IMG/VR virus record: IMGVR_UViG_3300018074_000001
Span: 1 to 43,316 of that record
Reading direction: 5' to 3' (one strand)
Origin: a virus
DNA: 43,316 bases
The translations under genes were made by a program, and so were the position numbers. Numbering within the stretch: the first letter of the stretch is position 1; each line of letters begins with the position of its first letter. Below are positions 37,383-42,548 of the stretch, piece by piece. The notes under the pieces were generated by a model. That model was not told where the DNA came from. It did no database searches and was given only the letters and a program-made list of their open reading frames with translations.

Positions 37383-37443
37383 CGGTGGCCTCTTTCCGCT
37401 CATGAGCTTAAGGCTGAGTATAAGGCCATCCGGTACTCATGGC

Positions 37444-37474
37444 AAAAAAAAGGCTCACCGGCGAGCGGCAAGCC
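37444..37474 (-). terminator. rho-independent terminator (minus strand)
   Basis: Read on the minus strand, GGCTTGCCG pairs with CGGTGAGCC (9 bp, two G-U pairs, 5-base loop; plus-strand positions 37452-37474) and is followed by eight T residues (37444-37451). This is a textbook terminator between the gene ending at 37608 and the gene starting at 37382, so the late region is not one transcript. Confidence 0.8.
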
Positions 37475-37607
37475 TTACTGATCAAGAAGTGGAATCTGTT
37501 CTTAGTATACGGACGCTCACCGCCACCTCCTCCGAGTATGGCGGCTCCCTCATGCTCACTTCGTTGGGAGATTCAATTCTACAAACAAGCGGTTCGTATT
37601 GCTACTG
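37475..37607. other. intergenic gap, no gene supported
   Basis: This 133-base stretch lies between the terminator and the 160-aa gene. A 23-codon minus-strand frame (MREPPYSEEVAVSV...) exists but has no ribosome-binding site. Nothing else was recognised. Confidence 0.4.
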
Positions 37608-38779: not shown

Positions 38780-39370
38780 TTACGATGATGCTGATGAGCT
38801 GGGAATCGTTTCAGCGGCCGCCGCGGGCTTCCTTTGGACCTGCGCCACCATGCGCACGCTCCGCTGCTCCTTCATTCCCGGCCGCCAGTACGATATGCGC
38901 CGCAAGAACTGGTTCCTGGGAGACAGTAATTCCTCGGCAGGCCAGCCGTTTTTGATGCGTCTCCTGATCGCTGGGAGAGATACGCCCGCGCGGCGACCGG
39001 CCTCGGTGAGGCTGATCTTCTCGCCGCCAATGTCGATGAGAACGTTGCTCCTCCGATGGCTGGACTGTTCTCTCGGAGTAGCCCACCGGCAATTGCTCGG
39101 CTCGTAGTTTCCGTTGTTGTCGATGCGGTCGAGGGTGGTTCCTTCGGGACGCAGTCCCATGTCAGCGAAGAATGAGGCGAAGCTAGCTACCCACTCCGGG
39201 CAGATGGTGATGCCTCGGCCGCCGTAGTCTTTGTAGTGGCCGCAGGTGGGCTTCAGGCACCGGGTTTTCATGGAGACCCATGACTTGTACGTGGGAGAAC
39301 GCCGCAAGCCGTGGGTCGGAAGCAGGCGCCCGTCTTTTTCTCTGTGGCGTACAATTTGATTTGGTGGCAT
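38780..39370 (-). CDS. HNH endonuclease 4 (196 aa)
   Basis: ATG 39370 has GGAGG 5 bases upstream. The product differs from the other three. It has SPTYKSWVSMKTRCLKPTC, YGGRGITICPEW, then TLDRIDNNGNYEPSNCRWAT, the HNH variant seen in many phage endonucleases, followed by ISLTEAGRRAGVSLPAIRRR, a helix-turn-helix, and a tail region rich in Ala and Ser. It is co-oriented with the late genes. It is probably a homing-type enzyme. Confidence 0.8.
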   Translation of the reverse strand: MPPNQIVRHREKDGRLLPTHGLRRSPTYKSWVSMKTRCLKPTCGHYKDYGGRGITICPEWVASFASFFADMGLRPEGTTLDRIDNNGNYEPSNCRWATPREQSSHRRSNVLIDIGGEKISLTEAGRRAGVSLPAIRRRIKNGWPAEELLSPRNQFLRRISYWRPGMKEQRSVRMVAQVQRKPAAAAETIPSSSASS

Positions 39371-39432: not shown

Positions 39433-39645
39433 CTATTCTATACCCGTAACCTCAACTCTGACCGGTGGTTTGCGAGGAACCGGAATCAATTTCACCCAGC
39501 CTTTTTTCTGCCTGATCGAGAACACCTTCCCGGTCGCGACGCCGGCGATCCCGCAGCACCCGCAGTGGCAGCACACCCATTCTCCGGTCTCCTGCAGCGT
39601 CACGGCGGCCGAGCTGCACATCGGGCATTTGAGGTGGGTGGTCAT
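39433..39645 (-). CDS. zinc-ribbon protein (70 aa)
   Basis: The 70-residue product has CPMC (7-10) and a cysteine-rich cluster CCHCGCC (25-31), then a basic beta-like tail (KGWVKLIPVPRKPPVRVEV). This is a small zinc-ribbon. No ribosome-binding site is obvious before ATG 39645. A transcription-related role is possible but not shown. Confidence 0.6.
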   Translation of the reverse strand: MTTHLKCPMCSSAAVTLQETGEWVCCHCGCCGIAGVATGKVFSIRQKKGWVKLIPVPRKPPVRVEVTGIE

Positions 39646-39744
39646 AACGCACGAAGACCCCGCCGAGTGGGATCTGCGGCGAGGCCCTCATGAAAACGAA
39701 TCACACTAACAATGAGTTGGTCTGAGAAATATTATGCCACAGAC
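39646..39744. other. intergenic gap, no gene supported
   Basis: This stretch lies between the zinc-ribbon start and the structured RNA. A minus-strand frame from ATG 39691 overlaps the zinc-ribbon gene out of frame and looks like a shadow. Nothing else was seen. Confidence 0.4.
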
Positions 39745-39810
39745 GCAGAAACGCCCGCTGTCTGATCCCTCGCTTTCGCGAGAGCCCTTGCGGGCAGCGG
39801 GCGCCTCTGC
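39745..39810 (-). ncRNA. structured RNA candidate, three-way junction with two GNRA hairpins
   Basis: The outer helix pairs 39745-39749 with 39806-39810 (5 bp) and, after a 2x2 internal loop, 39752-39760 with 39795-39803 (9 bp). Inside are two hairpins. On the minus strand they read GCCC-GCAA-GGGC (39784-39795) and CTCGC-GAAA-GCGAG (39769-39782), both closed by GNRA tetraloops. On the plus strand the loops would be TTGC and TTTC, so the minus strand is the likely RNA, in line with the flanking genes. The first hairpin shares one base with the outer helix. It matches no tRNA or ribozyme core I could check. Confidence 0.5.
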
Positions 39811-39855
39811 CTTGTATGGCTAATACCCAATACCGACTCAACCAAGGCGAGTCTA

Positions 39856-40122
39856 TCACGAACAGTCCACCCGCGTACCCCCGTCAAACGGGGTCGGCTC
39901 CCGTTCTACCCGCTTCGCCCGCGGAGCCACCAGCCCATACCGCTCGGCGTGCGCCCACTCCACCGCTTCCTTGGCATCGGCTACCCGCTCAAACTTCCCC
40001 AGCTCGTCCCCGCCGTAATAGGCAGGATAGCTCAGGAGCTTCCGCGCGTCTTCGAAGGAGCCGTAGATTCCGCTCGTGAAGTAATCGTTGTCATGGCAGT
40101 AGGCGTTATCCAGCCACTTCAT
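39856..40122 (-). CDS. small protein with viroplasmin-like segment (88 aa)
   Basis: The 88-residue product contains SGIYGSFEDARKLLSYPAYY followed by KFERVADAKEAVEWA, which resembles the small viroplasmin/RNase H1 N-terminal domain that binds RNA-DNA hybrids. The resemblance is partial. It overlaps the upstream winged-helix gene by 17 bp, so the two are probably co-translated. The structured RNA lies just downstream. Confidence 0.5.
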   Translation of the reverse strand: MKWLDNAYCHDNDYFTSGIYGSFEDARKLLSYPAYYGGDELGKFERVADAKEAVEWAHAERYGLVAPRAKRVEREPTPFDGGTRVDCS

Positions 40123-40789
40123 AGTCGTCCGGGTCGGCGAACCGCTGCTCTAGCCTCTCCTCGTGCTCCAACTCCTTGAGCGGCCGCGCGTAGCTCCGGC
40201 GCTTCGACTGCAGCATCAACTCAGCCAGCACCTGGTCCTTCGTCCACTCCGGGTGCAGCCCCTTTACCTCGGCATACGCCCGTTTCTTGCCTTCGATCTT
40301 GATACACACGAAGCACATCCCGTCCGCCGCCACCTTCACGCCCTTCCTCGGGCATACCACGCAATCCCCAATGGCGTGCTTGGCTACCTCGGGCCGCTTT
40401 GGTACCCGCCGCAGAGCCTTCCCGGTCAGTTTGTATACGTAGGTAGTCGAGTCCAGCCGCTCGACCGTGATGTACTCAAGCCCCACCAGTTCCTTCACCT
40501 GCCGCCGCGTTTCCCGCTCCCCGTTTCGCGTCACTTGGGACAGGCTGGCGATTTTCACCTTTGCCGATCCCTTCGGATACGTGGTCAGCGACAGCCAACT
40601 CAGCAGGAAGAACGCCGACTTCGACAGCGTCCCATCCAGGTGTACCGCCAGCGGCAGCCGGCTCTCTGTTCCGGCTCCCAATTCAGGCAACGTGACCGGA
40701 CATTTTGCGTCATGTGACCGGACATTTTCGCCCGGGCGTCTTATAGGAGACGCGCGCGGGTCTTCTTTAACCGATTTTCGCGCTCTCAC
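40106..40789 (-). CDS. winged-helix DNA-binding protein with zinc knuckle (227 aa)
   Basis: The 227-residue product has a winged-helix-like domain (about 50-120: SKSAFFLLSWLSLTTYPKG, LSQVTRNGERETRRQVKELV, GLEYITVER), then a CVVC...CFVC zinc pair (about 143-162), then a basic helical tail. It could be a regulator or a second replication-type protein, and it is the best candidate reader of the TCTACCTAG boxes. Start GTG 40789 overlaps the upstream TGA (GTGA). Its 5' end contains a tandem 15-bp repeat read in two different frames. Confidence 0.6.
   Translation of the reverse strand: MRARKSVKEDPRASPIRRPGENVRSHDAKCPVTLPELGAGTESRLPLAVHLDGTLSKSAFFLLSWLSLTTYPKGSAKVKIASLSQVTRNGERETRRQVKELVGLEYITVERLDSTTYVYKLTGKALRRVPKRPEVAKHAIGDCVVCPRKGVKVAADGMCFVCIKIEGKKRAYAEVKGLHPEWTKDQVLAELMLQSKRRSYARPLKELEHEERLEQRFADPDDYEVAG
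40692..40728. repeat. tandem 15-bp repeat inside the winged-helix gene
   Basis: GTGACCGGACATTTT occurs at 40692-40706 and again at 40714-40728 (period 22). The spacing is not a multiple of three, so the two copies encode different residues (ENVRSH and AKCPVT on the minus strand). That argues for a DNA-level role, such as a protein-binding site, or a mobile-element footprint. Confidence 0.8.
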
Positions 40790-41019: not shown

Positions 41020-41152
41020 TCTCCCCCACTTTATCCCACTTCCTCCCCCTTTTCAACAGCCTATCTCCTTCATCCGCAACAACTTGGTAACCGTAAGCCT
41101 CCTGTTCCCCATCTCCGAACCCTGAAAATTCTCGCGCACTCGGACTTGCCAC
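41009..41152 (-). CDS. possible small protein (47 aa), weak
   Basis: A frame from GTG 41152 gives 47 residues, ending GDRLLKRGRKWDKVGENAV, and overlaps the next gene by 11 bp, a normal spacing for this phage. There is no ribosome-binding site and no known family, so it may be a chance frame. Confidence 0.3.
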   Translation of the reverse strand: MASPSAREFSGFGDGEQEAYGYQVVADEGDRLLKRGRKWDKVGENAV

Positions 41153-41527
41153 TAACTGAAAGCGGGCGCCCCCCCGGCCTGGGGGTGCCCCGGCCCCTTT
41201 GATGCAGAGCACTCTGTGGGAGAGAGCAGTGTAATCGGCAAGCCCGGGTCTGCTGCATCACAGTGCACTCTGCAGAGCAGAGTACTCAACGGCTACGGCA
41301 TACGAGCATCGATGGCACCAAAGGCATGCGCTTCACGCATGGCATTGGCGCATCTTCCCCGGCGATGGCGGTATTCCACTGGCAATGAGCTGCCATTTGA
41401 CGCAGTCCAGGTCAAAATCCCCGGCTCGTTTGAGCCCGATCGCAGGGTTAGGGCAGTCAAAGGTGTGCTACGAATTGAAACGATCGTAGCAATTTGTAGA
41501 TAATCCTAAAACAGTACCTAAGGACTA
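41153..41527. other. divergent intergenic region with hairpin and CAGAG repeats
   Basis: This is the main non-coding gap, between the leftward group and the rightward early operon. It holds a GC-rich hairpin (41165-41173 with 41181-41189, 9 bp with one G-U), a cluster of CAGAG/CTCTG words (41205-41216 as inverted repeat, 41268-41282 as palindrome plus tandem copy), and a hairpin GGCTC-GTTT-GAGCC at 41423-41436. It could be the control region or an origin. A 95-codon plus-strand frame here has no ribosome-binding site. Confidence 0.5.
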
Positions 41528-41562
41528 TTGTTCTAGGTAGAGATGCGAGTTAATATCTGAAT
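41513..41562 (+). promoter_or_regulatory. early promoter with TCTACCTAG box (inverted) in spacer
   Basis: The -35 box TTGTTC is at 41528-41533 and the -10 box TAATAT at 41551-41556, with a 17-bp spacer. The 18-mer at 41513-41530 matches 2133-2150 at 16 of 18 positions, and the spacer holds CTAGGTAGA (41533-41541), the reverse complement of the box in the other early promoter. The expected start point is at or next to the ATG at 41563, so the first transcript may be leaderless. Confidence 0.65.
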
Positions 41563-41637
41563 ATGGATAGAACATACACAGCGATTGAAGTGATCAGGCA
41601 TCTGATGGGAAGGGCAGTGGATCACTACAACTCCTGA
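41563..41637 (+). CDS. tiny possible leaderless peptide (24 aa)
   Basis: A 24-codon frame, MDRTYTAIEVIRHLMGRAVD followed by HYNS, begins 7 bases after the -10 box, where transcription should start. There is no Shine-Dalgarno sequence, as expected if leaderless. It could equally be a chance frame in an untranslated leader. Confidence 0.35.
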   Translation: MDRTYTAIEVIRHLMGRAVDHYNS

Positions 41638-41774
41638 GCGCTCGTTTTTAGCGGCTGGGTTAGCGCGTGGGGCGTTGCGGCGGTGGTTCCGGCGGTACGG
41701 AGCCTCCCGAAGGCGCGCGCGGTCCTGGGGCAAATGTGGGGCTTGTCATCGGCAAGCTTAGCTCAAAATAAAAC
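41638..41774. other. gap without a supported gene
   Basis: This stretch follows the 24-codon frame. A plus-strand frame with a hydrophobic start (LVFSGWVSAWGVAAVV) runs through it but lacks an ATG or ribosome-binding site. No hairpin with a T-run was seen. Confidence 0.35.
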
Positions 41775-41827
41775 TGTACAAAGACAGACAAAATCGTATA
41801 AAGTAGAACAAAGGATCACAACACACA
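41775..41827 (+). promoter_or_regulatory. promoter and AAAGG leader module
   Basis: A -35 box TGTACA (41775-41780), 16-bp spacer and -10 box TATAAA (41797-41802) precede the leader AAAGGATCACAACACACA. The distance from the -10 box to the ATG at 41828 is 25 bases, exactly as at 2178-2202. The surrounding A-rich DNA supports a promoter. Confidence 0.6.
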
Positions 41828-41992
41828 ATGACACAGAAGCGACTCTGCAATGAAGCGGGTCCGGTATCCATCTCGAGCGCTGAGAACGTGCGTGGGTGGA
41901 TTGGCTGCCCCTCCTGCGGGAAGAAGTGCAAGGTCAGGCGCAATGCTTCAGGCGTGGCGACGATCCGCCCCCACAAGGAGGCTGCCAAATGA
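41828..41992 (+). CDS. small cysteine-containing protein (54 aa)
   Basis: The start is set by the AAAGG leader module. The 54-residue product has C7 and then GCPSCGKKC (CPSC plus a third cysteine), followed by a basic tail. It is another small zinc-type early protein. Its stop overlaps the next start by ATGA. Confidence 0.65.
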   Translation: MTQKRLCNEAGPVSISSAENVRGWIGCPSCGKKCKVRRNASGVATIRPHKEAAK

Positions 41993-42159
41993 AGCGCAAA
42001 CCTGCCGAGGGCAAAACGCTGTACGAAATCTTCACGGGAGAAAAACCGCCCGCGCGTTGCGAGCAATTGTCGAAACCGGGGGAACCCGGTCGCGCAGAAA
42101 CCAAGCCTACTGCGCTTGATAAGACAGGCTTACTTTCGAAAGGATCACACACACAATGA
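41989..42159 (+). CDS. small basic early protein (56 aa)
   Basis: ATG 41989 overlaps the upstream TGA. The 56-residue product is rich in K, P, E and T and probably disordered. Its last codons (KGSHTQ) are written by the AAAGG leader module of the next gene, so the module serves as coding and start-site sequence at once. Function unknown. Confidence 0.55.
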   Translation: MKRKPAEGKTLYEIFTGEKPPARCEQLSKPGEPGRAETKPTALDKTGLLSKGSHTQ

Positions 42160-42548
42160 AACTCATCACACTGGCGTTAGCAGGAGCGATAGCGCTCTCG
42201 GCCCAATCTCCGATCGTCGTCTCGCGCGACGGGAAGTACTTGGGCAACCTCAGCTCGAACCCGTACGACCCGAATTCGATCGCCAATCCGTATGGCCGGT
42301 ATGGTTCTCCCTACCAGTCCGACTCCGTTAACAATCCGTATGGCCGCTACGGCAGCCCGTATTCGAACCAGAGCGCCAACAATCCGTATGCGACGCAGGC
42401 GCCCATCGTCATTGCGCCCAGGCCCGCCTACACGGGAGGCTATCCGGTGTATCATGCTCCCTCGCCGGTGCGGCCGGCGATGTCCTACTACACTCCGGTG
42501 CTGCCGGCCTATCCGATGGCTCCGGTGATGGGCGTATTGCCCTACTAG
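42156..42548 (+). CDS. secreted NPYGRYGSPY-repeat protein (130 aa)
   Basis: The 130-residue product starts with a signal peptide (MKLITLALAGAIALSAQS, cleavage likely after AQS). DGKYLGNLSSNPYDPNSIA follows, then two 16-residue repeats starting NPYGRYGSPY and a partial third (NPYATQ). The tail is Pro/Tyr-rich. I recall this repeat in bacterial and phage exported proteins of unknown function. An early exported protein could act on the envelope, for instance to block adsorption of other phages, but that is inference. The start uses the AAAGG module. Confidence 0.75.
   Translation: MKLITLALAGAIALSAQSPIVVSRDGKYLGNLSSNPYDPNSIANPYGRYGSPYQSDSVNNPYGRYGSPYSNQSANNPYATQAPIVIAPRPAYTGGYPVYHAPSPVRPAMSYYTPVLPAYPMAPVMGVLPY

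Follow-up and report, generated by a model that had tools for sequence, protein, structure and literature searches.

A candidate leader RNA with invariant hairpin loops ahead of a zinc-ribbon gene in related bacteriophages

The Com protein of phage Mu is a zinc-binding translational activator with a stem-loop target, and in phage T7 intergenic hairpins serve as RNase III processing sites or as 5' stabilising hairpins of mRNA. According to PMC9378689, the putL and putR RNAs of phage HK022 consist of two adjacent stem-loops that together make up a unit of about 70 nt near promoters, bind the zinc-binding domain of the RNA polymerase beta' subunit, and suppress termination. PMC3526286 describes the nut site of phage lambda as boxA plus boxB; passages of PMC4807359 gave no boxA sequence. 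The locus described here resembles put in being a candidate phage cis RNA with two stem-loops near promoters, and differs from it in that the hairpins are split by a promoter-like box and carry long, invariant loops. As in the lambda nut site, a promoter-proximal linear box is followed by a hairpin with a fixed loop. Unlike nut, however, the loops are 7 and 13 nt long instead of the boxB tetra- or pentaloop, boxA is not found above chance, and no N-like protein was identified.

The window (the whole stretch of DNA analysed, 43,316 nt) is an IMG/VR virus record, IMGVR_UViG_3300018074_000001. Since its first and last 123 bases are identical (a 123-bp end repeat), the window probably represents a complete bacteriophage genome of about 43.2 kb that is circularly permuted; its PHROG matches included a terminase, a DnaB-type helicase, a portal, a major head protein, a primase and a helicase loader. 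Among named phages, neither a near nucleotide relative of window positions 20000-43316 nor a zinc-ribbon homologue was found, and the element of relative G006 had no match there; short matches had E values of at least 0.2. A terminase alignment scan of genome contigs gave no indication of the host. A terminase scan for relatives yielded 15 loci, 7 of which extend to the zinc-ribbon gene; the other 8 stop nearer the terminase than the position of the element. One further record, G008, was added by a scan with the zinc-ribbon alignment, and it also carries the terminase; G004 was excluded from all counts, its element being the same as that of G003. The sample counted is thus the window and seven distinct related phage records (eight genomes). 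The terminases of the relatives are 62-81% identical to that of the window, so the eight genomes represent a single evolutionary lineage. For covariation, their elements reduce to six distinct stems of hairpin A and five of hairpin C.

The features of the window are listed below in the leftward direction, all on the minus strand.

39850-39858, minus: P1, extended -10-like box TGATAGACT (relatives TGATAGGCT); TGATAGRCT stands here in all eight genomes
39815-39820, minus: GCCATA box, pairing with 39741-39736 in the window; invariant in all eight
39795-39810, minus: 5' arm of hairpin A (16 bp), from fold, pair probabilities and covariation
39785-39794, minus: inserted hairpin with loop GCAA (39791-39788), from pair probabilities; window only, absent from all seven relatives
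39767-39784, minus: inserted hairpin with loop GAAA (39777-39774), from pair probabilities; window only, absent from all seven relatives
39761-39767, minus: conserved loop of hairpin A, GATCAGA; ATCAGA is invariant in all eight
39745-39760, minus: 3' arm of hairpin A, from fold, pair probabilities and covariation
39731-39739, minus: P2, extended -10-like box TGGCATAAT; TGnCATAAT in seven of eight, TGCGATACT in G001
39698-39717, minus: linear box after P2 (relatives AGTCWT..GTTGTGTGTG; diverged in the window), beginning 8-13 nt past P2 in all eight
39656-39686, minus: hairpin C, with 13-nt loop GCAGATCCCACTC (39665-39677), immediately before the zinc-ribbon start codon; from loop, covariation and covariance model
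39433-39645, minus: gene for a 70-aa zinc-ribbon protein, the conserved partner gene, with a conserved frame and no Shine-Dalgarno motif
37450-37476, minus: intrinsic terminator closing the operon; a terminator at the same place in all eight
37417-37445, minus: sigma70-type promoter TTGCCA-17-TATACT of the next operon; similar in seven of eight, not in G003

In all eight genomes, the order is TGATAGRCT, GCCATA, a hairpin with loop (G)ATCAGA, the extended -10-like box, the linear box, a second hairpin whose loop is GCAGATCCCACTC, and finally the zinc-ribbon gene. The element stands at the same place before this small gene throughout, in one copy per genome; the gene upstream of it differs among relatives. 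Seven distant loci (L176-L182) lack the element. In a pattern scan, the fuller pattern gave at least 7 hits among the matches listed (136 loci): the loci of four relatives, L050, L094 and L129; L050 is a second locus on a contig of one of these relatives, and L094 and L129 are unrelated. Protein scans with the window ORFs 40106-40789 and 39452-39691 gave no matches.

The minus strand of window positions 39735-39820 has a folding energy of -57.4 kcal/mol (z -7.0), which none of 200 dinucleotide shuffles equalled; that of the plus strand is -46.4 kcal/mol (z -5.0). Pair probabilities were 0.95-1.00 throughout the outer helix and both inner hairpins, in agreement with the original prediction of two enclosed hairpins with GCAA and GAAA loops on the minus strand. 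The outer helix, described there as 5+9 bp, was confirmed as a helix, but not its split: it consists of 16 uninterrupted base pairs (39810-39795 with 39760-39745), two G-U pairs between the blocks having been omitted. Six additional pairs (GCCAUA/UGUGGC, 39820-39815 with 39741-39736) lie outside it, beyond the limits first assigned to the fold. In all seven relatives, hairpin A is a plain hairpin with loop (G)ATCAGA and a loop length of 6-9 nt. In the window, 27 extra bases, which form the GCAA and GAAA hairpins, separate the 5' arm from GATCAGA. No second genome carrying such an insertion was found among the relatives, so conservation does not lie in the two GNRA hairpins. The GNRA loops were therefore rejected as the core of the element, and the early emphasis on two GNRA tetraloops is not supported, the three-way junction being confined to this genome.

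What is conserved is the pairing of the stem. Across the inner ten pairs of the six distinct stems of hairpin A, 58 of 60 cells form standard pairs, and 7 of 10 columns changed on both sides. None of 2000 column shuffles (maximum 53) and none of 265 whole-arm swaps (maximum 53, mean 41.8) did as well. RNAalifold on a MAFFT alignment, in which some arms were misplaced, found 5 of 14 pairs changed on both sides. As counter-evidence, the 3' arm of G006 is a slightly better pairing partner for the 5' arms of G007, G008 and G001 than the 3' arms of those genomes themselves. Uninterrupted pairs number 12-18 in six of the seven relatives, 16 in the window and 8 in G001. Each relative's record has 8-23 ATCAGA sites, and in every case the one with the longest stem is the element; a simple ATCAGA-stem descriptor does not detect the window copy because of its insertion. 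The leftward strand of hairpin A folds better than the opposite strand in all eight genomes, with leftward z values from -7.2 (window) to -1.7 (G001, where 14 of 200 shuffles were as good), and G-U pairs number 38 of 166 on the leftward strand versus 11 of 143 on the other. Sequence comparison thus makes a strong case that hairpin A is a covarying, position-conserved structured element on the leftward strand. The claim that the minus strand encodes a structured phage RNA is supported by its conserved position, its covarying stems and this strand preference, and the covariation looked for in homologues is strong.

Hairpin C lies outside the coordinates first noted. Its loop, GCAGATCCCACTC, is invariant in all eight genomes. 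Its five distinct stems have 40 of 45 cells paired, versus a maximum of 28 in 44 arm swaps; in four of these stems, 94.4% of cells are paired, a level reached by none of 500 shuffles, and slid versions gave at most 54.3%. A covariance model built from four relatives, with the window left out, was searched against 413,421 bases. It detected the window copy (29.8 bits, E 0.0015) and the seven others, with a single weak extra site in G008 (22.4 bits, E 0.075). The two strands of hairpin C fold about equally in seven of eight genomes, the exception being the window, so its strand rests on its position and on hairpin A. Directly after hairpin C, three genomes (G003, G007 and G001) have TCCCTTTTT, a partial case of a U-tract terminator. 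G003 and G007 also contain an additional cassette with a hairpin B, loop ATTTCTCCCGATGC. Two coding alternatives for the region were rejected: a short plus-strand ORF across the hairpin, whose start is the reverse complement of P2, is interrupted near its beginning in G002 and G005, and a leader peptide from the ATG in GCCATATGC has no such ATG in the window or G001.

The conserved frame downstream of the fold is 39433-39645; the ORF at 39452-39691 is in the wrong frame. The intergenic gap is consequently 39646-39855 (210 bp), and the fold takes up less than half of the gap it was thought to fill. The TGA of P1 doubles as the stop codon of ORF 39856-40122. The -10 of P1 (TAGRCT) is weak, and neither P1 nor P2 was listed by a scanner that requires a -35. 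The terminator lies about 2-5 kb downstream of the hairpins in all eight genomes, after the zinc-ribbon gene and further genes; just past it, ahead of the next ORF, seven of the eight have a TTGCC-17-TATACT-like promoter, and in the window the operon after this promoter leads to the terminase and structural genes. A Shine-Dalgarno motif is present in 17 of 27 window genes examined; the absence of one from the zinc-ribbon gene is thus not special, since 10 of the 27 lack one by the same test. For the zinc-ribbon protein, structure prediction gave a small fold of beta-strands, at modest confidence (mean pLDDT 72.3). A search with six members found no Pfam family above cutoff; four matched Lar_restr_allev weakly (best E 0.00069, below the family cutoff). 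In pairing a small zinc protein of the phage with a hairpin close to a start codon, the locus resembles the Mu Com system; no Com family, however, was among the Pfam matches of the six members.

HNH genes also occur in this region. The tail of an HNH endonuclease at window 38780-39370 (RSVRMVAQVQRKPAAAAET) resembles that of the G002 zinc-ribbon protein, which is uninterrupted; it looks as though the endonuclease had been inserted into the 3' part of the zinc-ribbon gene. In G001, the leader is split by an HNH gene on the opposite strand (L005 1678-2044, matched in two pieces whose frames differ), with the hairpin A part on one side and hairpin C on the other; because it separates them, A and C need not act together in that genome. 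Elsewhere in the window, a block at 41077-41307 (minus), also present in G001-G003 and G005-G008, reads AGGGCCGGGGCACCCCC(A/T)nGCCGGGGG and then CGCTTTCAGTTA; its one C-run has two G-runs as alternative potential partners. More conserved blocks lie at 41441-41565 and 41652-41837 in the divergent control region, where the motif GGCTTGCCGATTAC recurs in several places. The 130-aa protein encoded at 42156-42548 (plus), which has many NPYG/YGSPY repeats, shares 91-96% identity with its homologues in five relatives, in which the terminases are 62-81% identical to that of the window.

Comparison with RNA families gave no assignment. At the Rfam 15 gathering thresholds, there were no matches in the window; at relaxed thresholds, weak matches occurred in the window alone and in none of the seven relatives. 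The sole cis-regulatory family scoring weakly in the window was DUF1874 RNA (RF02953; 21.1 bits, E 0.063), but this is half of its gathering score (42), and none of the seven relatives matched it at E 2. A literature search, conducted mostly outside subscription journals, found no description of the element. The compensatory stem changes and the fixed position before a gene are those of a generic covarying cis-regulatory leader.

Because the loops are fixed while the stems change in matched pairs, the RNA shape is real and probably controls the downstream gene group. We propose, with a rough probability of 0.4, that the region is a cis-acting leader RNA of a small operon, transcribed leftward and read through its loops by an RNA-binding factor. 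Past each of the two promoter-like boxes, P1 and P2, a GC-rich hairpin stands within tens of bases. The fixed loops, (G)ATCAGA in A and GCAGATCCCACTC in C, may be the sites that an RNA-binding protein recognises. This protein could come from the phage, perhaps being the zinc-ribbon product, or from the host, and would control operon expression through its action on the leader, whether nascent or finished. Hairpin C sits at a start codon that lacks a Shine-Dalgarno motif and could gate zinc-ribbon translation, and hairpin A would mark solely the longer P1 transcript. The two GNRA hairpins may enlarge loop A in a way that is tolerated or specific to this lineage.

Promoter-proximal hairpins with fixed loops heading an operon, with a terminator downstream in every genome, would also suit a processive antitermination site of the put or nut type, at which the hairpins would alter RNA polymerase shortly after it initiates and let it pass the terminator that precedes the structural operon; put RNA acts without a protein and is located downstream of early promoters, according to PMC9378689. 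This reading, raised in the original prediction, is retained as a rival but seems unlikely. The stems are not arranged as in the single put unit described in that text: in the window, hairpin A ends at 39745 and hairpin C begins at 39686, about 58 nt away, with P2 in between. The boxA match was no better than in random 35-mers in seven of the eight genomes (G007 alone was in the top 5%), judged by the E. coli consensus, which may not be that of the host. No GNRA-like loop of the boxB kind is conserved, GNRA being confined to the window insertion. Moreover, read-through is not needed in seven of the eight genomes, since a promoter stands right after the terminator. Nothing was found in support of a host-factor decoy, which had also been suggested.

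Invariant loops within variable stems, each hairpin preceded by a promoter-like box, could alternatively mark trans-acting small RNAs, one or several, that would use these loops as seeds for pairing with host or phage mRNAs. Twelve nucleotides of loop C do have their complement (GAGTGGGATCTG) in the portal gene of six of the seven relatives (G001, G002, G003, G005, G006 and G008), but this complement is absent from the window and G007, though both have loop C intact, and this pairing is probably due to chance. Loop A has no conserved complement in the phage genomes, and there is no U-tract terminator at 39650-39860 in the window, as had been noted for the fold, and hence none at hairpin A or C; we consider small RNAs improbable. 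An RNase III processing site or a 5' stabilising mRNA hairpin, like those of T7, would account for the long, GC-rich, uninterrupted stem of hairpin A between cistrons. For double-strand processing or simple stabilisation, however, loops of 7 and 13 nt would not have to be invariant; hairpin C is short, and the stem of hairpin A in G001 has few uninterrupted pairs, which makes this explanation equally hard to favour. The near-perfect inverted repeats, the HNH genes beside or inside the region and the variable upstream gene might instead point to a DNA-level element, such as a cruciform, a replication or recombination site, or a mobile hairpin. This is the most doubtful reading: a DNA cruciform does not explain the preference of the G-U pairs of hairpin A for one strand, and the element is single-copy.

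Returning to the proposed leader RNA, a broader and distinctly tentative interpretation is that the locus belongs to a modular phage RNA system. Repeated cassettes, each comprising an extended -10 promoter, a linear box and a hairpin with its own invariant loop (A and C, and B in G003 and G007), might form a novel class of cis RNA, distinct from put, from nut and from every Rfam family, that programs one operon via different loop readers. To our knowledge, covariation-backed RNA elements at phage promoters have rarely been described outside a few model phages. The fixed loops amid changing surroundings offer a direct handle for finding the factor that reads them, and this factor may in turn reveal how, in phages whose hosts are uncultured, expression of the genes preceding the structural ones is timed.
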